Shown in pieces: positions 24,997 to 56,782 of a stretch of DNA of 64,000 nt. Numbering within the stretch: the first letter of the stretch is position 1; every line of letters starts with the position of its first letter. The notes under the pieces are model-generated. The model saw only the letters and a program-made list of their open reading frames with translations, made no database searches and was not told the origin of the DNA. Both the position numbers and the translations under genes were made by a program. This DNA comes from Verrucomicrobiales bacterium (GTDB lineage: Bacteria; Verrucomicrobiota; Verrucomicrobiia; Limisphaerales; UBA11320): assembly GCA_016793885.1 (NCBI GenBank), contig JAEUHE010000233.1, forward strand, positions 1-64,000, written 5' to 3'.

Positions 24997-25018
24997 CTCA
25001 TCTTTACCTCCAAGAAAG

Positions 25019-25386
25019 CGGACTAGACAAGCTGGGCAACGCCGGTTTTTCTCAATTTATCGGCAGAGCCCGAACCCGCAGGGTTCAAAGAGATCTAGCC
25101 GGGGGTGCTCGCACCCCCGGAACTGTTAAAAGTACGGAGCATCGCGCAGCGATGCCACCGGGATCTGAGACTTGCGTCACCCGACTCAAAGAACCTGATC
25201 AATTCGTCAGTCCGTTCGCCGACGGGTGGCACGCCTTCCAGGGTGCTGTTTAATAGGGGGCCGATAGACCGGGGGTGTCGCTGCGCTCCACGCCCCGGCT
25301 CATCTCTTTGAACCCTACGGGTTCTCGGCTTCGGCATCAGGAACTCACGCGAGGAAGTGAGGATCCCCTACAATTTGTCCAGTCCC
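25019..25386 (+). repeat. Repeat element family C with nested inverted repeats, copy 1
   Basis: The core 25072-25324 (253 bp) is bounded by GAACCCGCAGGGTTC and GAACCCTACGGGTTC. Inside these, AAAGAGAT...ATCTCTTT and a GCCGGGG...CCCCGGC pair extend the terminal inversion to about 35 nt. Internal hairpins include GGGGGTGCTCGCACCCCC and GCATCGCGCAGCGATGC. Outer GACTAGACAA/TTGTCCAGTC pair at 25019 and 25386. An inverted second copy with the same 253-bp core lies at 35573. Confidence 0.85.
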
Positions 25387-35572: not shown

Positions 35573-35879
35573 GAACCCGTAGGGTTCAAAGAGACTAGCC
35601 GGGGCGTGGAGCGCAGCGACACCCCCGGTGTGTCGGCCCCCCAATAAACAGCACCCTGAAAGGCGTGCCACCCGTCGGCCAATGGGCTGACGAACTGATT
35701 AGGTTCCTTGAAGCGGTTGACGCAAGTCTCAGAAGCCAGTGGCATCGCTGCGCGATGCTCCGTACTTTTAACAGTTCCGGGGGTGCGAGCACCCCCGGCT
35801 AAATCTCTTTGAACCCTGCGGGTTCGGGCCTTGCCGCAAAGTCAGAAAAGCCGGCGTTGCCCAGCTTGTCTAGTACCCC
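35573..35879 (-). repeat. Repeat element family C, copy 2 (inverted)
   Basis: The core 35573-35825 is 253 bp, the same length as the copy at 25072-25324 and in opposite orientation, with the same terminal inverted repeats and internal hairpins. The flank to 35879 matches the GCTTGTCTAGTACC outer segment. The two copies differ by scattered substitutions that do not preserve a reading frame signal. Confidence 0.85.
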
Positions 35880-35974
35880 ATTTTTCGCGGCAAAGATGAG
35901 GTCGTGCCACCGCAGTCCATAGAGGGACATGCCCGCTTCGTTGGTTGCACGTCCTCCTCGGAGCCCCTGTGCCG

Positions 35975-48008: not shown

Positions 48009-48219
48009 CCCTTGGGTCGCGAAAAACGTTCGGCCCTCACCGCCTTCGCTCGGCTGGCACCTGTCATTCGCAATCCCTGCGGACCGAGTGTATGCTAGGG
48101 AAAGATTGTTCGAGAAATATTTTGACAACCACCGGGGGGGGGGGGCTAAGTTGGAAATAGTCAAAAGAGGTAAAGGTGCAAAGTGCCGCCGGCGAGCGGC
48201 CTTGAAACGAACACTGCAC
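47943..48219. other. Intergenic region with poly-G tract
   Basis: About 280 nt between the aminopeptidase and the beta-helix gene. It includes the family-E repeat and a homopolymer G12 (48134-48145) preceded by TTGACA (48122-48127). The reading frame of the beta-helix gene is open upstream to 47980, so the G12 is in frame with it. Confidence 0.7.
48122..48151 (+). promoter_or_regulatory. Possible promoter with G12 tract in the spacer
   Basis: TTGACA at 48122-48127 matches the -35 consensus. A 17-19 nt spacer contains G12; a recognisable -10 is weak (GCTAAG or TAAGTT). Slippage in the spacer would change promoter strength, as in phase-variable genes such as Neisseria porA. This is inference. 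Confidence 0.3.
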
Positions 48220-50925
48220 ATGTCACTCATTCAAGCACTGCTCCAGGATGCTGTTCCAATGGACGTGTATATCGCTTTACGGAGCGATGGTGCCGTCGGG
48301 TCCGGGACCGAGAACGACCCGTGGAATGGGGGACGGGCGGCTTACCCAGTCCGGACCGTCGATGCAGTCACTGTAGGTACCATCACCGACAACGCCCCGT
48401 TTATCGTGACGATCACCACGAGCGTGGCTCATGGGTTTAATTCGGGGGATATCGTGCTCATGAGCGGGTTCGCTGCGCCTGCTACTTCGCCGCCCTCGCC
48501 TCCCTATGGTGAACTACTTAACGGGAGCTTTCTGGTCACTGTTCTGGCTGATACGCAGTTTACCTATAAGTCTTATTACTATTCCGAGGGTTTGTATCCG
48601 GCTCCCCCCACCGGTTCTCTCAGTTCCTCGGGAGTGATTTGTCAGAAGGATCCATTTCTCTTCGATGCGGTGATGCGTCGCCTTGCCCAGACCCCGACGA
48701 AGGCGGTTCGTGTTCACCTGGGGCCTGGAGTTTTCGAGACCAAAGGCTACCAATTTTCCTATCGGGACGGGGGAGCATCCGGGCTGGGCGGACTGGGGGT
48801 TACTTGGAGGGCCTTCGCAGGCCTAAAAATGCGCGGGTCAGGGATCAACGTGACCACTCTGAAACTGGTGGAGGCTTCCTTTCGGAACGCCCACTATCAT
48901 GTTATTGGGATGCCTCCAAATGCCTACCCCGCCGACGTTGCGGATTATTTTGAGGCTTCCGATTTTACCATCGACTGCAACGTCGGTGGACAGAATTCCA
49001 CTCAACTGACCTGCGGAGCCATTTTTGTGCGCGGAAGCCATACCCGACTTCGGAGGCTCCGAGCCATCAATTTCGGTCGGCAAGGCCCAGGGCTCAGGAC
49101 GGTTGCCGGGGTTCAAACCCCCGTCACGCCGGAACTCTTCTTGTTCCCGGTAGGCGGGTCCTCCCTGGCCAACAACGCAGGGAAGTATCAGTCGTCGGAC
49201 TGTGTGATTGAGGAATGTGTCGTGGAGCAGCCCGGGTTCAACTGCTTTCGGGAATCCACACTGCTGGTGGTTTCAGGAGGGAATTTTCCAAGCGGTGCCA
49301 CAGCTTTTAGGAACAATTACATCAACTGCGAATACGTGCTGAATCCGGTAAGGATCTCGGGTGTTACCGCGACGGACTTAGGAGGAACCACGACCAAAAC
49401 AATGGAGGTCACCGTTACCACTGTGGATCCGCATGGACTCACTGGAAATCCCTGGGTTCGGATCACGGGAATCAGGGTGGCCGGAAGCACCCTGGACGGA
49501 TACAACAACGCCTACAATGGGGCTTTTCAAGTGACCTCGATCACACCCCCCTACGTCTTCAAGTATGTTGCGGTCTATGTGGGGACATTTCCGGCGAGTA
49601 CTACAGTCGTAGGGGCTTGGCTGAATCGTTGGTCCAGTGACTATGTCAAAGTTCTCACGGTCAGCAATCTCCACTCGGTAACTGGTGTAGATCAGCTGAT
49701 TGGTGGCACAAAGGTCTATGAGGTGACAATCACTACCGATTCGCCCCATTTCCTAATACCCAGAGGTTCTTCAACTGTTCTGCCCGCAGGCTGCGTTGCT
49801 GTCTTGGACGGGACCACTCCAACGTTTAGCACCACGCCTTATAATCTGAACGTTCCATGGTTCGTGACTCAGGTCGTAAGCAATAATTCGTTTAAATGTC
49901 AGCGTGACTTTGAGGATCCGACGGCAACTCCTACGCTGACAGGTGTGGCTAATGCCCGGTTGGGTGCCAGATGGCAGGCGTTGGCAGGAGCCAGCCTGTT
50001 GGAGGGAAACCAAGTCTACAATTGCACAGTGGGCGGGCACTACATCGACACGTGGGGACTCAAGGACACCGTCGTTCGAAATAACTTCTTTTCTCGAGTG
50101 CGGCTCGGGATGAATGTGGTGTTGGATGGACAAGGACCTGGAGCTTCGGTCGCACTTCCGACCATCACCTTCATCCCCCCTCTCCGGAGCACGGGAACTG
50201 GCACGGACCAAAAATGGTTCGCGCTGTTTGAGATGGTATCGGGATTTCCCCATTTCCTGACAGTCGGGCAGGGAGTTTTGATCACGGGTGCGAAAAATGG
50301 GACCACCCCGCTCGATGACCTGTATAACCTTTCGTTCAAGGTATTCGCCATTCCTACCTCGACTCGGTTTGAAATCCAGTTGGATGCGAATCCGGGAACG
50401 AATAACCCTAACAACACTCCAACCGTCACTTGGCTCTGGACGACTACCGGAACTGTCTACGAGAACAATGTGGTAGAGATGGTGCCTTCGCTGGATACGG
50501 TGCAGAGTAAGGCTTTTTCTCTGGAGGGAAAGATCACCACTGCGGTTTGGAACAACCCGGGATGGCTGTATGCGCGGCCGACATATTATCGGCATCTGGC
50601 TTTCGTGTTTCGTAATAATACGGTTCGGTATGCGCTGCTTCCTTCGGGACTACCCATGACAGGGGTTCCTTCGGGAGAGGCCTGTGTAACCTGTCAGAGA
50701 GTTGAGAAGGGCGTTGTGACTGACAACGTGGTAGACTTGGATTGGAGGATCGCATCCTCCCATGAAACCCCGTTGCTTCAGATAGAAAGCAATCTGTTTT
50801 ACTACTTCAACAACTTCTCCTCATCGGGTCGATTTGTCCCAGGGACCGACCGGGACGCCAGCAATCGTTGGGAAGGGGGAGTGAACACGGTCGTGGAAGA
50901 GGCCCTCGAACTCGCTTTCTTATGA
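48220..50925 (+). CDS. Beta-helix surface/tailspike-like protein with four FCCH-like insertions
   Basis: A 901-residue protein with paralogue at 52002. It starts MSLIQALLQDAVPMDVYIAL, then RSDGAVGSGTENDPW. The backbone is a pectate-lyase-like parallel beta-helix (HLGPGVFETKGY, MRGSGINVTTLKL, FTIDCNVGG, RGSHTRLRRLRAINFG). Four insertions of roughly 70-100 residues (about 47-127, 381-467, 474-580, 647-741) resemble the E1 FCCH-like beta domains of phage tail proteins (H-G-[LF]-x-x-G-D, NG-[ST]-F-x-V-[TV]). No signal peptide. ATG at 48220 is supported by the paralogue. Likely a surface or appendage protein. Confidence 0.65.
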   Translation: MSLIQALLQDAVPMDVYIALRSDGAVGSGTENDPWNGGRAAYPVRTVDAVTVGTITDNAPFIVTITTSVAHGFNSGDIVLMSGFAAPATSPPSPPYGELLNGSFLVTVLADTQFTYKSYYYSEGLYPAPPTGSLSSSGVICQKDPFLFDAVMRRLAQTPTKAVRVHLGPGVFETKGYQFSYRDGGASGLGGLGVTWRAFAGLKMRGSGINVTTLKLVEASFRNAHYHVIGMPPNAYPADVADYFEASDFTIDCNVGGQNSTQLTCGAIFVRGSHTRLRRLRAINFGRQGPGLRTVAGVQTPVTPELFLFPVGGSSLANNAGKYQSSDCVIEECVVEQPGFNCFRESTLLVVSGGNFPSGATAFRNNYINCEYVLNPVRISGVTATDLGGTTTKTMEVTVTTVDPHGLTGNPWVRITGIRVAGSTLDGYNNAYNGAFQVTSITPPYVFKYVAVYVGTFPASTTVVGAWLNRWSSDYVKVLTVSNLHSVTGVDQLIGGTKVYEVTITTDSPHFLIPRGSSTVLPAGCVAVLDGTTPTFSTTPYNLNVPWFVTQVVSNNSFKCQRDFEDPTATPTLTGVANARLGARWQALAGASLLEGNQVYNCTVGGHYIDTWGLKDTVVRNNFFSRVRLGMNVVLDGQGPGASVALPTITFIPPLRSTGTGTDQKWFALFEMVSGFPHFLTVGQGVLITGAKNGTTPLDDLYNLSFKVFAIPTSTRFEIQLDANPGTNNPNNTPTVTWLWTTTGTVYENNVVEMVPSLDTVQSKAFSLEGKITTAVWNNPGWLYARPTYYRHLAFVFRNNTVRYALLPSGLPMTGVPSGEACVTCQRVEKGVVTDNVVDLDWRIASSHETPLLQIESNLFYYFNNFSSSGRFVPGTDRDASNRWEGGVNTVVEEALELAFL

Positions 50926-51995
50926 AGTCCTGCGATTGCATCACTTCAGGATTCCGCGTGCGGCGACGCCTGAGTCGTGTTCTGCGATTCAAGTGCGCCG
51001 TCTTCCTCCTCTTCTTTGCTTCAGCCAGACCTATGCACGCGCAACTTCCTATGATCCCAGATCCTACCTATTACACCTTGGCTATCCCGGCAACTGCGGA
51101 GACGAGTAAGAACCGTGCGACCACGAAGGTACCCTTCGGAACTTTCTGGTCGGGGTGTCGCTATCAACAGGTCTTTAACGCTTCTCACTTTTCGAAACTG
51201 CCCCCCGGCGGGGGATTCATGTTTCGCCTCTATTTCCGCCCAGGGTGTGGTGGTACTCAGGGAACTTTCATGACCAATACGGTAGTTCGGATGTGTACTA
51301 CCGCCCGCGCTGCCGGCCAACTCAGCCCGGTCTTCGATGAAAACCTGGGGGCTGATGTTCTGACCGTCGCGACCGTTCCGCTGAGCGCCGCTAACGGATA
51401 TTTACCGATAGAACGATGTGTTCCTAACCCTCCGCTATCAGATACGCTGGCGTGGTATTTGTTCATGCGCCTGAGGACCCCGTTTCTATATAATCCAGCT
51501 AAGGGTAACTTGTTGCTAGAACTCCTCATTTCGGCACACGTTCCTGAGCTAGACCAAGATTTCGAGAATTCCCCGATACTCCTGGAGCCTTCAGCTGAGA
51601 AGGTGGACGGGATATCATCGATTGCCGCTGGTTCCACCAACGCACTCAGCGCCGAAGTCGTGAACCCTTACGGATTGGTCGCTCAGGTTGTTTTCGCGCC
51701 TTTCCCCACTCTGTCTGTGACTCCCACGGACACGAACTTGGTGCTCAGCTGGCCGAGTCACCCAGAACCGATCCGGCTCCAGCACAAGGATTCATTGGAC
51801 CCATCGGTGGCCTGGAGAGATTACACGGAACCTGGGATTCAGCGTTTCGAGTTAACCTCCCTACTCGAAATCCCCCGGGCCAGTCTGCAAGCTCGCCGGT
51901 ATTTTCGTCTCTATTGGAACAGTCCGCAGGTAGGGCTCCCCGATACCACGGTGGAGGTCGGACCCGAACCAGCTCCCACCCCGGTCATTCCTTGA
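50922..51995 (+). CDS. Secreted hypothetical protein
   Basis: A 357-residue exported protein with an Arg-rich n-region and signal-like CAVFLLFFASARPMHAQ. The remainder is beta-rich with cysteine pairs (FWSGCRYQQ, RPGCGGTQ) and Pro-rich tail; near the C-terminus TPTDTNLVLSWPSHPEPIRLQHK resembles a fibronectin-like segment. Its ATG overlaps the stop of the beta-helix gene by 4 nt, so they are coupled. No family recognised. Confidence 0.6.
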   Translation: MKSCDCITSGFRVRRRLSRVLRFKCAVFLLFFASARPMHAQLPMIPDPTYYTLAIPATAETSKNRATTKVPFGTFWSGCRYQQVFNASHFSKLPPGGGFMFRLYFRPGCGGTQGTFMTNTVVRMCTTARAAGQLSPVFDENLGADVLTVATVPLSAANGYLPIERCVPNPPLSDTLAWYLFMRLRTPFLYNPAKGNLLLELLISAHVPELDQDFENSPILLEPSAEKVDGISSIAAGSTNALSAEVVNPYGLVAQVVFAPFPTLSVTPTDTNLVLSWPSHPEPIRLQHKDSLDPSVAWRDYTEPGIQRFELTSLLEIPRASLQARRYFRLYWNSPQVGLPDTTVEVGPEPAPTPVIP

Positions 51996-52001
51996 TCTCG
52001 C

Positions 52002-53393
52002 ATGTCCCTGATTGATGCACTTCTTTTGGATCCGCCGAGGATTAACATCTGGTTTGCCATGAGAACGGATGGGATAGCCGGAAGCGGCACCCAAGCCGAT
52101 CCATTGAACTGCACGCCTTCGGGTAAGTTTGATGAGTACATGCGCGGTATGGCTGAGAATACGTGCATTCATCTTGGTCCCGGAGTGTTTGTTACTCTGG
52201 GGTACTACACGGGCATCCCTTCAAATACCTCCTGGCAGGCCAAGAAGGGAATGCGCATCGTCGGGTCAGGAATCGATGTCACGACCATCCAGCTGGTCAA
52301 CAACACAGGCTCTAAACAGATCTACGCAGTTGGACATGCACTGTCTGCGAGCACTGTAGACAACTTTGAGATTTGCGACTTAACGATCGACTGCAACCTA
52401 CCAGGGGTCGGCACTTCAAGTGCGGCAGGCGCCGTACGCATAATGGGTAGCCATTCACGCGCCTCGCGCATCAAAGTTAAGAATTGGGGAAATAAAGGGG
52501 GGACCGGAGCAACACATTCCTTTGCCATAGCCATGCTGACAGGGGACGGAACGATTACCCCGACCATCACCAATTCCGGAATTCAAGATTGCATCGCAAT
52601 CACTCCTGGAACGGGACATACCGGTTACATCAGTGTTTTGCACGTCGGGTATCCGGAAAGCGCGTCCGGAACATCGGGGAAGGGCGTCGGCCCGTATATC
52701 CGAAACTGCTACGTCAGTTGCGGTCAAACAACACTTGGAAACACCACCAACGATAAGCTTTTTAGAGGCCTTTCCATGGCTTGGTGCACGGGTGGAATTG
52801 TGGAAGGTAACCGCGTTCAAGACACCTTTTACGGAGGTCCTTACAATATTCTGGGCGCCTTGGACGTCACAGTACGGAACAATGTCTACCGCAATGTGGC
52901 CGTGGGACCTTTGTACAACATTCACACGGCTCTTTCAGATAAAATGGATTTGCTGGTTGAAGGGAACCAAATCTATCTCACCAGATCTGACGTAAATCCC
53001 TTGTCTGATGGCAATGTGTGGACCTATGGGATTTTAATATATAACGACGCCGGTGGAGCCGGCGTCATCCCGTTTCGTAACATCGTTGTCAGACGCAACT
53101 ATATTGGTTACGTGCCAGAAGGAACTTTCGGGAGTCAGCCCGGGTCAGGATGCTTCATCTACGCTGCAAGCAATGCAACTGTTGCGGAGAATTCCTTGGA
53201 TCTTTCTGCTCTCGTTCCGACACCAATGATGAATCGATATTGCACCACCGCGAGGTATTTTGAAAACCGAACGCCTGCCGGCTTGTTGAAACAGGGGGTG
53301 CGGGCTACCGGAGCTGCGACCTATGACTTGGTGTACACGGAACTGGCGACGGATGCGGAGGACGCTCTGATTCTATCGCTCCTGCGGCGCTGA
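52002..53393 (+). CDS. Beta-helix surface/tailspike-like protein, compact paralogue
   Basis: A 463-residue paralogue of the 48220 protein, starting MSLIDALLLDPPRINIW and RTDGIAGSGTQADP. It keeps the beta-helix signatures (IHLGPGVFVTLGYY, MRIVGSGIDVTTIQL, LTIDCNLPG, IMGSHSRASRIKVKNWG) but has none of the FCCH-like insertions. Both proteins end with an acidic [AE]-[ED]-[AE]-L-x-L-x-[FL]-L tail. It starts 6 nt after the preceding stop. Confidence 0.65.
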   Translation: MSLIDALLLDPPRINIWFAMRTDGIAGSGTQADPLNCTPSGKFDEYMRGMAENTCIHLGPGVFVTLGYYTGIPSNTSWQAKKGMRIVGSGIDVTTIQLVNNTGSKQIYAVGHALSASTVDNFEICDLTIDCNLPGVGTSSAAGAVRIMGSHSRASRIKVKNWGNKGGTGATHSFAIAMLTGDGTITPTITNSGIQDCIAITPGTGHTGYISVLHVGYPESASGTSGKGVGPYIRNCYVSCGQTTLGNTTNDKLFRGLSMAWCTGGIVEGNRVQDTFYGGPYNILGALDVTVRNNVYRNVAVGPLYNIHTALSDKMDLLVEGNQIYLTRSDVNPLSDGNVWTYGILIYNDAGGAGVIPFRNIVVRRNYIGYVPEGTFGSQPGSGCFIYAASNATVAENSLDLSALVPTPMMNRYCTTARYFENRTPAGLLKQGVRATGAATYDLVYTELATDAEDALILSLLRR

Positions 53394-53555
53394 GGCCCAC
53401 GGTTCTGGTCTACCAGGTCTTTGCAGTCCCAACCAGGCAGAACCCTAGGGCAGACACTATCAAGGATCGATGGAAGGAACGAATGTCGGACCTCTGTAAC
53501 AGTCAAAAGCTCCATGGAGCGGAATAAATTCTGCAAATACGAACACACACATGCA

Positions 53556-53885
53556 ATGGCTACCACTATCAAAATCATCGCAAACGGGTTTCTAGGGACT
53601 GGTCTTTCACCCGCCGTCTACACGCCTACCGGGACCAAGTCCGCCTTCGTCACGGGAATAACGTTCATGAACACTCACGCCAGCGCACAAGCGGTAACGT
53701 GGTACGTTCTCCCGGGCGGGGTCTCGAGTTCGGAGGCTCGTATCTACTTTAACTCGAGTATCGCCCAGAACGCCGGCGACAAGATCAACGACGTGATCAC
53801 CCTCTCGGGTGCCGACCAACTCGTGGGCACCGCCACCAACACTTCTGCAGTCAGTTTCGCCGTGTATGGCATCGAGCGCGATTAG
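53556..53885 (+). CDS. Small beta-rich protein (phage decoration-like)
   Basis: A 109-residue protein: TIKIIANGFLGTGLSPAVYT start, then FMNTHASAQAVTWYVLPGG and GDKINDVITLSGADQLVGTA. The pattern (xT-x-x-x-[FY]-x-x-x-[VT]-x-x-x...) resembles small virion tail-associated proteins of tailed phages. The frame extends back to 53421, but the MATTIK start is preferred. Confidence 0.55.
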   Translation: MATTIKIIANGFLGTGLSPAVYTPTGTKSAFVTGITFMNTHASAQAVTWYVLPGGVSSSEARIYFNSSIAQNAGDKINDVITLSGADQLVGTATNTSAVSFAVYGIERD

Positions 53886-53933
53886 TTCCTCTCCCGTGTC
53901 GGTAGACTAATTCATTGAATTAAGATCCAAATT

Positions 53934-54248
53934 ATGCCCATTACCTTTAAACTTCTGAAGGCTACCAAAGCGATGACCGCCAATGCAGCGAACGTCATGT
54001 ACTCGGCAGGGCCTACCAACTCAGCCATTATAAGCAATATTCGTTTCTACAACGGCACCGGAGCCTCAACCAATGTGGATTTGACTGTCACGAAGGGTGC
54101 CACCGCTGCGAAGATTGCTCGTGTCGCTGTGCCGAACAATACGGTTACCGTTTTCAACACCGAGATCACCCTGAACAGTAATGAGAAGGTCGAGGCCAAC
54201 ACTGCAGTGACTTTGGATTGTGTGGTCTGCGGTGTGGAGCGGACCTAG
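53934..54248 (+). CDS. Small beta-rich protein, paralogue
   Basis: A 104-residue protein, with the same fold pattern as the previous one (MYSAGPTNSAIISNIRFYN, NVDLTVTKGATAAK, NTEITLNSNEKVEANTAVTL), also ending GVER. The two share the layout of small phage tail proteins. Confidence 0.55.
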   Translation: MPITFKLLKATKAMTANAANVMYSAGPTNSAIISNIRFYNGTGASTNVDLTVTKGATAAKIARVAVPNNTVTVFNTEITLNSNEKVEANTAVTLDCVVCGVERT

Positions 54249-54257
54249 TGGATTCGA

Positions 54258-54476
54258 ATGATCATCGACGAAGCGGAACAATTTGGGATCGCAATCTATT
54301 ACCCGACATCGATTTCCGACCAGATGAAACGCCGCCGATCCGCTGTATCAGGCCTGGTCTCGCGGTCTGAGCTTGCTACCTTCACAATACCCGGTTGGTG
54401 GGAATCCTCACACGTCACCGCGATGGGGATGCAGACCTTGAGCCACGTTCAGCCTCAATACCCTCGTGGCCGTTAA
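54258..54476 (+). CDS. Small hypothetical ORF
   Basis: A 72-codon frame (MIIDEAEQFGIAIYY) starting 9 nt after the previous stop and overlapping the next gene by 11 nt. The close packing favours a real gene, but no features are recognised. Position suggests part of the beta-helix cluster. Confidence 0.4.
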   Translation: MIIDEAEQFGIAIYYPTSISDQMKRRRSAVSGLVSRSELATFTIPGWWESSHVTAMGMQTLSHVQPQYPRGR

Positions 54477-55650
54477 GATTCTATGGTTGAGCGATTGTCC
54501 ACTACTGGCGACCGGCTTTGGCCGCGTCACCCGTGAGCTAACGATCAGGCTAGCGAAGCATCCCGATCTGGAAATCGTTTGCCTCGGTGTAGGCTTCGAC
54601 GGTTGGCCCTATGACCAAGCCCTCTATCCGATCAAGGTCTATCCGTCTCTAGCATCCACCTACGGGGAAGATCACTTTGAGCGGGTGGTGAACGAGTTTC
54701 GCCCCGATGTTGTCATTACGCTTGGGGAAATGTGGATGTTCCAGTGGATGTCGACTCATCCTGTGCGCGGTCAATTTAGGTGGATCGCCTATGTGCCTAT
54801 TGATGGAGCCCCGCTTTACGAGCCCTGGGTACCTCTCATTCAGGGGATCGACGAAGTGGTAACGATGTCCGACTTCGGTCGGTCGGTAATCCAAGCTGGT
54901 GTGCCTTCCAAGCGTATCCATCGGATTTATCATGGCGTGGACACCGAGACGTTCCGCCCTTTGCCCGATAGGGAGCGGCTTCGAGATCACGATCGTTGTC
55001 GTGGCAAGTTTGTTGTGGGATGCGTCGCCCGGAATCAGCCCCGGAAAAACATTCCTGCTTTGGTCAAAGCCTTCGCCCAGCTCAACGAGCTTCATTCTGA
55101 TACCTACCTCTATCTGCATATGAGCCCGTGCGACATCGGGTACGACTTAGTTACTCTTTTGAGGCGTTACCGACTCCAAGACCGAGCTGATGTGTCCACC
55201 CCAGAGTTGTCGCTAAGCTGTGCATTGAATGATTCTGACCTCAATCGCTTGTATAATTTTTTTGATGTCACCGTGCTGGCGAGCAACGGGGAAGGTTTTG
55301 GGCTGCCTATCATTGAAAGCATGGCCGCTGGAGTGCCTGTTGTCGCCACGGACTACAGCGCTTGTTCTGAATTGGTTCGAGGTCGTGGGGAACTCGCGCG
55401 GATCCTCGGCACGCAGACCTTGGGGAACAATTTAATCGAGCATGCCATTGTGGATGTGGATGACTTGGCCCGATGTATTGAAAGACTTTATTTGAATCCC
55501 ACGCTGCTCGAAACCTACGGAAAAGCTGGACGTGAATATGCGTGCAACTTGGCTTGGGAGAAGCTGATCCCACAGTGGCTCGAAGTGATCAGTTTAGCGA
55601 CTGGTTTTAACCTGTCGCTGTCGCATGGACCGGAATCTCGACCAGGCTAA
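54466..55650 (+). CDS. Family 4 (GT-B) glycosyltransferase
   Basis: A 394-residue GT-B enzyme starting at GTG (AVKILWLSDCPLLATGFGRV). The donor-binding signature is GEGFGLPIIESMAAGVPVV (E-G-F-G...E), with the N-terminal GFGRVTREL acceptor loop and mid-region GCVARNQPRKNIP. Predicted to transfer a sugar onto an acceptor, perhaps the neighbouring beta-helix proteins. No other start in frame looks better. Confidence 0.8.
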   Translation: MAVKILWLSDCPLLATGFGRVTRELTIRLAKHPDLEIVCLGVGFDGWPYDQALYPIKVYPSLASTYGEDHFERVVNEFRPDVVITLGEMWMFQWMSTHPVRGQFRWIAYVPIDGAPLYEPWVPLIQGIDEVVTMSDFGRSVIQAGVPSKRIHRIYHGVDTETFRPLPDRERLRDHDRCRGKFVVGCVARNQPRKNIPALVKAFAQLNELHSDTYLYLHMSPCDIGYDLVTLLRRYRLQDRADVSTPELSLSCALNDSDLNRLYNFFDVTVLASNGEGFGLPIIESMAAGVPVVATDYSACSELVRGRGELARILGTQTLGNNLIEHAIVDVDDLARCIERLYLNPTLLETYGKAGREYACNLAWEKLIPQWLEVISLATGFNLSLSHGPESRPG

Positions 55651-55687
55651 TCAAAGCTGTGCGTAGCCCATCGGGAGGGCAGCTCTC

Positions 55688-56782
55688 ATGATCCACTATG
55701 CTGGTAAACCGGGGTTTGGGTTCGGTTGGGGAATGGCCAACCGTTACCTGATTCAGGAACTGTCTCAGCTGGCCGAAGTCGTACCCTTGGATGACACGCA
55801 TCCGCTCTGGACTTGCCAAGACCTACCGGGTGACCTTTTTGTTCCGCTTCAGGACCACGATTTCAATCCTTCTGCGCCCTGCCGAGGAAGGCGGAACTTT
55901 GCTTACACATTCTTCGAGCTGGAGCTGACTGATGCGGCGAAAGACAATGCCAAGCGTTATGATCTCGTTTTCGCTGGATCGTCCTGGTGTCTCGCGCGCA
56001 TGCGGGAGAAGGGAATTCACAACGCCGCCCTGTTGATTCAAGGGATCGATCCTGCGCTCCATTTGCCTGGGACCTCAACCCGCACGGACGAAGAGTTTCT
56101 CATCTTTTCCGGAGGAAAGTTTGAATTCCGCAAGGGACAGGATCTCGTTATCATTGCCTTTCGGGAGTTGCAGGACCGCTACCCGAACATGACACTGGTA
56201 GCATCGTGGTTCAATTTTTGGCCCGACTCACTCCAGAGCATGGCGATGTCGCCCTATCTTCGTTGGGAATGGAGCGGATCGGACTATGAAGACCAGATGA
56301 ATCACTTGCTTGAGATCAACGGCATAAGGCCTGGGCGAGTCAAAGTCTTACCCCTGTTGGCCCCCGAGAAATTGGTGGAGGTCTATCGAGCTACGGATTT
56401 AGGAGTCTTTCCCAACCGTTGCGAGGGGGGGACAAATCTGGTGATGATGGAGTACATGGCATGCGGAAAGCCGGTCATTGCTTCGTACACCAGCGGACAT
56501 CGCGACATCGTAACCGAGAACAATGCCTATCCTCTGGTGGACCTTGAATCGCTCGAGATCTCCGATTCGGACGATAAGTTAGTGGCCCGGTGGGAGGAGC
56601 CTAGGGTTCAAGACATCGTTGCCATGATCGAGCACGCATATCACAATCGACACGCAGCAACAATCCGTGGCGCACGCGCCGCGGCGGACCTTAAGCGGCT
56701 CACCTGGAGGCACACAGCGGATTTCCTCTTTTCTAAGATGAGCCTTGTCCCGCCGGAGCATCCCCTTCTTCTTTTCGTCTAA
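55688..56782 (+). CDS. GT-B glycosyltransferase
   Basis: A 364-residue GT-B glycosyltransferase: YAGKPGFGFGWGMANRYLI start, FSGGKFEFRKGQDLVI, VKVLPLLAPEKLVEVYRATDLGVFPNRCEGG and NLVMMEYMACGKPVIAS (E-x7-E-like). A good ribosome-binding GGGAGGG precedes the ATG at 55688. Not closely similar to the adjacent GT, so the two probably add different sugars. Confidence 0.78.
   Translation: MIHYAGKPGFGFGWGMANRYLIQELSQLAEVVPLDDTHPLWTCQDLPGDLFVPLQDHDFNPSAPCRGRRNFAYTFFELELTDAAKDNAKRYDLVFAGSSWCLARMREKGIHNAALLIQGIDPALHLPGTSTRTDEEFLIFSGGKFEFRKGQDLVIIAFRELQDRYPNMTLVASWFNFWPDSLQSMAMSPYLRWEWSGSDYEDQMNHLLEINGIRPGRVKVLPLLAPEKLVEVYRATDLGVFPNRCEGGTNLVMMEYMACGKPVIASYTSGHRDIVTENNAYPLVDLESLEISDSDDKLVARWEEPRVQDIVAMIEHAYHNRHAATIRGARAAADLKRLTWRHTADFLFSKMSLVPPEHPLLLFV

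Follow-up and report, generated by a model that had tools for sequence, protein, structure and literature searches.

A row of eight genes (A to H) in a 64,000-nucleotide stretch of a Limisphaerales genome (positions 1 to 64,000 of contig JAEUHE010000233.1, assembly GCA_016793885.1; 'the window' below) is one of about five dispersed copies of a conserved module in that genome; by our estimate there is about an even chance that each specifies a glycan-binding or glycan-cutting, tailspike-like spike together with its own glycosyltransferases (GTs), and that most are switched by slippage. The strongest functional clue is a poly-G promoter ahead of A; this was overlooked in a preliminary description made from the sequence letters, as were the recurrence of the cluster within the genome and the additional genes of its sister modules. 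The features concerned are as follows.

48122..48152, plus strand: putative phase-variable promoter, with TTGACA, a 19-bp spacer that includes G12 (48134-48145), and TAAGTT
48,220-56,782, plus strand: the eight-gene row A to H, packed open reading frames (ORFs) arranged like an operon
48220..50925, plus strand: A, beta-helix protein with inserted FCCH-like beta domains (paralogous to C; match to phrog_529)
50922..51995, plus strand: B, protein with a signal-like N-terminus, its start codon overlapping the stop codon of A (11-member family)
52002..53393, plus strand: C, predicted right-handed beta-helix protein (AlphaFold2 model; sequence relatives in other modules)
53556..53885, plus strand: D, jelly-roll or beta-sandwich protein of a phage tail-region family (profile and structure matches)
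53934..54248, plus strand: E, homologue of D (the two aligned together across modules)
54258..54476, plus strand: F, small protein with a conserved GWWExxH-type tail
54466..55650, plus strand: G, GT4 glycosyltransferase of a module-specific subfamily (PF00534, phrog_2170)
55688..56782, plus strand: H, second GT4-type glycosyltransferase, a variable accessory gene (PF00534, phrog_2170)

The G12 run (48,134-48,145) is the sole G/C homopolymer of at least 8 in the window, and it lies 74 bp ahead of A. The layout of TTGACA, G run and TANNTT is common to the window (contig C233), to a second copy of the module in contig C249 (TTGACA, G13, spacer of 20, TAGATT) and to a copy in another genome (G004:C46; TTGACA, G13, spacer of 20, TAGCTT), with spacers of 19-20 bp throughout, and TTGACA plus G10 precedes A in contig C149. 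Other A genes have C12 (loci L057 and L059), G12 (L066) or 8- and 16-bp tandem repeats (L020 and L062) ahead of them, and those of L067 and L069 have no upstream run or repeat; in all, G/C runs of 10-13 are found upstream of seven of the 11 A genes and tandem repeats upstream of two more. The source genome contains 12 distinct tracts of at least 10 Gs, three of which are in contig-end junk and three upstream of A genes, and the chance of three of the 12 falling upstream of four A genes is ~6e-10. Judged by its repeat, the locus is thus a candidate for the slipped-strand phase-variable (contingency) class, in which the tract would bring about switching. There is a precedent for a poly-G promoter in Neisseria porA (PMC3639595), likewise a G tract inside the promoter of a surface-type locus; the present module differs in belonging to the Verrucomicrobiota and in having its tract ahead of a tailspike-like operon, where switching is presumptive. 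An earlier report from the phylum concerned homopolymers inside genes of Akkermansia (PMC3048395).

Across the order, the pattern TTGACA-N2-8-G8 was present in 12 of 58 genomes, and a reversed control gave 0. It also precedes other genes of secreted or surface type, at L115, L117, L119 and L125 (in G025, G019, G044 and G012, respectively), the types of gene found after it elsewhere being IPT/TIG-like and C-type-lectin-like (the latter in G012). TTGACA-polyG may represent a general class of slippage promoter in the Limisphaerales. A simpler rule, that all poly-G tracts in the genome mark modules, was dropped, as several are near unrelated genes or in contig-end junk.

Searches with C, D and G located the module, whole or in part, at four further places in the source genome (8.7 Mb, 274 contigs): as A-B-C-D-E-F-G in C249, as C-D-E-F-G in C154 (where the contig ends ahead of C), as A-B-C-D-X-T-G in C178 (where X is Gly-rich and T a TPR protein), and as A-B plus a stub of C at the contig end in C149. 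The conserved order is A, B, C, one or two D/E proteins of ~110 amino acids, a small or Gly-rich protein, the GT4 enzyme G, and other GTs. The C model was matched in all four other genomes of the genus, the matches in G001 being weak and coming from signal-bearing relatives, and complete or partial modules are present in G002, G003, G004, G012 and G043, the last two of which represent other families of Limisphaerales. The source genome alone was matched at E<=1e-20 among 388 phylum-wide genomes, so that the module is, as far as these sequence comparisons extend, patchy and restricted to the order. The conserved neighbourhood that the preliminary description had proposed looking for is thus present, with synteny recurring both in the source genome and in its relatives, and a chance origin of the cluster is ruled out by this conservation across genomes (all eight strong matches to G lie in module loci). 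In trees, neither the C nor the G of C178 groups with its counterparts in the same genome: its C joins those of G012 and G043 (100/98), and its G, weakly, that of G004; from these placements, at least two lineages of the module coexist in one genome. Literature searches, in which subscription journals were thinly covered, yielded no description of the module.

The preliminary description had read the cluster as beta-helix paralogues, a secreted coupled protein, small proteins with phage-tail-like patterns, a small ORF and two GTs, packed on one strand, and these identifications are borne out. The eight plus-strand ORFs (A to H: 901, 357, 463, 109, 104, 72, 394 and 364 amino acids) overlap or are separated by short gaps (ATGA overlap for A/B, 6 bp between B and C, 162 bp between C and D, 9 bp between E and F, and an overlap of F and G). 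A and C are paralogous over their full length and alike at both termini (profile-profile probability 100, E 1.8e-55): A begins MSLIQALLQD and C MSLIDALLLDP, giving a common motif MSLxxALLxD, and both end in a short hydrophobic stretch. C has a C-terminal helix. All eight occurrences of the motif in the source genome are at the starts of A or C genes of modules (reversed control, 0). No signal peptide is apparent by eye in either protein. The AlphaFold2 model of C is a right-handed beta-helix (pTM 0.83, pLDDT 79.8, with residues 1-11 unsure), the fold expected of a tailspike, and C is predicted to be a beta-helix of the tailspike/polysaccharide-lyase type. Its best matches among solved structures span Z 26-31, and include the Vibrio lyase RbmB, the alginate epimerases AlgE4 and AlgE6 and the Dettilon tailspike (Z ~31 for RbmB and AlgE4; 31.1 for Dettilon), the PfbA adhesin (Z 30) and the Sf6 tailspike (Z 27). 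C is 39-57 % identical to C proteins of other modules, and A has paralogues at three other loci of the source genome (31-43 % identity). The inserted domains of A match the phage tail-fibre family phrog_529 (4.4e-9; 2.7e-15 for the paralogue in C249), and two sister A proteins match PF16190 (E1_FCCH) weakly (5e-4, below the Pfam cut-off).

No relatives of A or C were found in viral contigs or phage records (IMG/VR and INPHARED; viral contigs were scanned twice, and phages searched twice by tblastn), and their PHROG matches are weak or confined to domains. Signal-bearing relatives of C do exist elsewhere in sister genomes (L063, L064, L073 and L074), a combination that makes a bacterial origin possible for A and C. 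In the same genus, L063 (7200-9767), L064 (8560-10032), L073 and L074 specify large secreted beta-helix proteins related to C, beside other large secreted proteins; these are a possible bacterial source of A and C.

D and E form one family, homologous over their full length to small proteins from phage tail regions (hhalign 98.6 %, E 8.7e-16, the phage profile comprising six rows, one of which, L083:6734-7063, does not belong and was kept in). Relatives of the profile occur in Methylophilales phage Melnitz, Pelagibacter phage HTVC026P (as a 'structural protein'), Streptomyces phage Caelum and Pontimonas phage phiPsal1, and in Melnitz two D/E-type proteins are found with a tail fibre and a Gly-rich protein. 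A tblastn search of phages with D of the window had given no match, and it was the later profile comparison that found the phage relatives. The model of D (pLDDT 90.5) is matched by predicted phage virion proteins in BFVD (Foldseek; TM 0.87, E as low as 4.8e-9). Its matches in the PDB, at Z 8-9, include nucleoplasmin-like domains, the HFTV1 turret, the KHP40 cement protein and Ena appendage subunits. D/E-type jelly-roll proteins keep their place after C in modules complete at that end. The tail of F is conserved in six modules, at the position between E and G, and T, in type II modules, also ends in PGWWE. A further gene of sister modules, K, has a match to a family of phage tail proteins (1.9e-9).

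B has a signal-like hydrophobic stretch at its N-terminus, and its copy in C178 ends in a PEP-CTERM signal (TIGR02595, 22.2 bits, cut-off 16). The L059 copy is below that cut-off, though it and the L068 copy look PEP-CTERM-like by eye; no PEP-CTERM match was found for the copy in the window, and no Pfam, NCBIfam or PDB relative for the body of B. G and H both match PF00534 above its cut-off (2e-17 and 3.2e-14) and phrog_2170 (8e-42 and 5.7e-20). With G as bait, the 58 genomes gave exactly eight matches at E<=1e-60, all eight inside modules; because of this the subfamily represented by G is, on sequence grounds, taken to belong to the module. H is a variable accessory gene, absent after G in the C249 copy (and not present in L018), and sister modules carry additional GT2-TPR or GT9 enzymes. 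In the phages S-CBS4 and phiPsal1, relatives of G are encoded close to genes for a portal or capsid, and a viral-contig scan with G found just two distant GTs.

How much of a phage is there, then, in these modules? No terminase, capsid, portal, sheath or integrase gene was found in or beside any copy read, which extends to the sister modules what had been said of terminase, capsid and integrase in the window, and the flanks of sister loci are housekeeping genes (nuo-type genes, an amylase-type gene and an RluD-like gene) rather than prophage. The earlier suggestion of a domesticated phage module is upheld in respect of D/E and G, which have phage relatives, but not of A and C, which have none in the viral contigs and phage records searched. 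As for a glycosylated surface appendage or tail-like structure, the tail-like character (D/E, A, K and the tailspike-like C) and the co-occurrence of GTs stand; assembly into an appendage and glycosylation of the products are conjectural. Two classes were tried for the cluster and rejected: a prophage or gene-transfer-agent remnant, with no other phage gene at any copy read, and an extracellular contractile injection system or tailocin, with no tail sheath, tube or baseplate genes in the loci and a mostly negative search for a sheath.

The main rival to a switchable spike module is a locus for modifying surface glycans, in which the GTs would build or alter surface polysaccharide, A and C would be its lyases or epimerases, and the tail-like small proteins would be incidental. 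We consider this unlikely, despite the RbmB lyase and alginate epimerases among the best structural matches of C and the interpretation of GTs in phage tail-fibre regions as O-antigen modifiers (PMC7029224): no signal peptide is evident in A or C, in contrast to B; the modules read, including the eight genes of the window, have no flippase, polymerase, exporter or sugar-nucleotide gene; and D/E-type proteins come after C in the modules complete at that end. Two other explanations fit less well. The modules might be dispersed cassettes of receptor-binding cargo for a tail-like particle (a tailocin, a contractile injection system or a helper phage) encoded elsewhere, as would suit the resemblance of D/E, A and K to tail proteins, the multiple alternative spikes and a weak sheath match in the source genome; but the tail sheath family PF04984 was not found in five of eight module-bearing or related genomes and was below cut-off in the source genome, there are no tail genes near the modules, and B, unlike genes of tail particles, has a secretion signal, so that we regard this as improbable. 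(PF04984-like matches lie at G000:C225:5678-5947, G003:C53 and G018:C46, above the cut-off in the last two genomes, and are possibly a tailocin or injection system unlinked to the modules.) Degenerate prophages that have lost the rest of the phage are very improbable, for all that D/E and the GTs belong to phage-related families and C is truncated in some loci, given an operon whose gene order has stayed intact in several families and which is found several times per genome, housekeeping flanks with no other phage gene, and no viral contig or phage record with A or C.

To return to the spike module, we infer from its folds, families, conservation and repeat layout how assembly, glycosylation, export and switching might proceed. 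Transcription would start from the TTGACA/TANNTT promoter, whose spacer would be lengthened or shortened by slippage of the G tract, and slippage would in this way set the transcription of each module, so that several alternative spikes would be on offer. A, B and C would be co-translated, with A and C forming spikes that present a glycan-binding or glycan-cutting beta-helix and have a common N-terminal docking peptide, presumed from the shared motif, and a C-terminal helix. D and E would cap the structure or act as adaptors, a role that small proteins of the tail region probably have in phages, and G and the other GTs, to judge from their strict co-occurrence, would glycosylate the spike subunits. 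B would be an exported protein, some of its copies bearing an exosortase (PEP-CTERM) signal, and might tie the product to the envelope. The outcome would be a spike, at the cell surface or secreted, that is switchable and variable and serves to adhere, to capture glycans or to evade phages or predators. A bolder and more doubtful proposal is that such phase-variable, glycosylated, tailspike-based surface or secreted machines are a previously undescribed class, with alternative switchable copies within one genome; equally tentatively, the class might be characterized by its combination of phage-type adaptors, beta-helix spikes with a shared N-terminal docking peptide, a partner that is exported and in some cases anchored by exosortase, and dedicated GTs.

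Several points weigh against this interpretation. How might the product reach the surface, when an export signal can be recognised in none of A, C, D and E? The case for a surface location accordingly depends on B and on analogy. GTs of this kind in phages may act on glycans of the host and not on virion proteins (PMC7029224). The 19-20 bp spacers fall outside the usual 16-18, in a group whose promoter rules are unproven, and the site at 48122..48152 goes uncalled in a standard promoter scan; since such spacers are poor for a standard promoter, the copies that have them could be in a state of low expression. The poly-C runs of L057 and L059 are not preceded by TTGACA. Tract lengths come from one assembly, could be slightly off, and were compared between paralogues only. 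Finally, some modules are decaying, several copies having broken C genes.

Among known systems, the phage tailspikes and receptor-binding proteins (Dettilon gp208, Sf6, HK620, K5 lyase) resemble the module in the fold of C, in the lack of a signal peptide in A and C, in the FCCH-like insertions of A and in having small tail-region proteins as neighbours, but the module is chromosomal, present in several copies, has a secreted protein and no tail or head genes, and no sequence relatives of its A and C were found in the viral contigs and phage records searched. The small jelly-roll virion proteins of cyanophages, pelagiphages and Melnitz phages (phrog_20100 / phrog_1276 type) share family, length and fold with D/E, which however come from an operon of bacteria and are flanked there by beta-helix genes and GTs. 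Host recognition clusters of pelagimyophages (PMC7029224) likewise pack tail-fibre-type genes with GTs, but in phage genomes, whereas the modules are dispersed in bacteria and have promoter repeats. Ena endospore appendages, the HFTV1 turret and KHP40 cement proteins also have jelly-roll subunits, but their likeness to D is in structure only. If our interpretation is correct, bacteria keep phage-tail-type spikes, with GTs of their own and no phage particle, as a surface repertoire that can be switched, which would be a new type of variable surface in the little-studied uncultured Verrucomicrobiota, and slippage of poly-G promoters is indicated as a regulatory device in the Limisphaerales, a mostly uncultured group. 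Both ideas are testable now with long or deep reads of existing metagenomes.

The modules also seem to turn over. Broken C genes are common, with stubs in C149, G004:C18, G012:C103 and G002:C378 (where the stub is at a contig end, the assembly may have broken there), and this turnover fits loci under shifting selection. In G004, contig ends within C share an identical stretch of 141 bp (L057 10178-10318 / L058 1-141) and a second pair shares 122 bp (L060 10285-10406 / L062 20-141); the shared sequences hold a 43-bp inverted-repeat-like core, which suggests insertion of the same mobile element in two C genes. At L065 (7832-9189, G004:C16) is a collapsed module that retains the first 54 residues of A, the end of A and the end of G. 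Two contigs of G012 (C103 and C56) end at a poly-G run (L067 4-14 and L066 5-16), and may be one locus with two tandem modules, the assembly being broken at the tract.

In the window, the cluster lies among ordinary chromosomal genes, with a PF10023 aminopeptidase gene upstream and a gene for an extracytoplasmic function (ECF) sigma factor downstream, and its GC content of 0.52-0.57 is slightly below the 0.58-0.62 of its neighbours. In a comparison meant to find empty sites in relatives by way of the VWA neighbour, the short matching loci had neither the aminopeptidase gene nor the module beside it. Elsewhere in the window, positions 24997-25324 and 35573-35900 form a 329-bp inverted repeat, 90 % identical.

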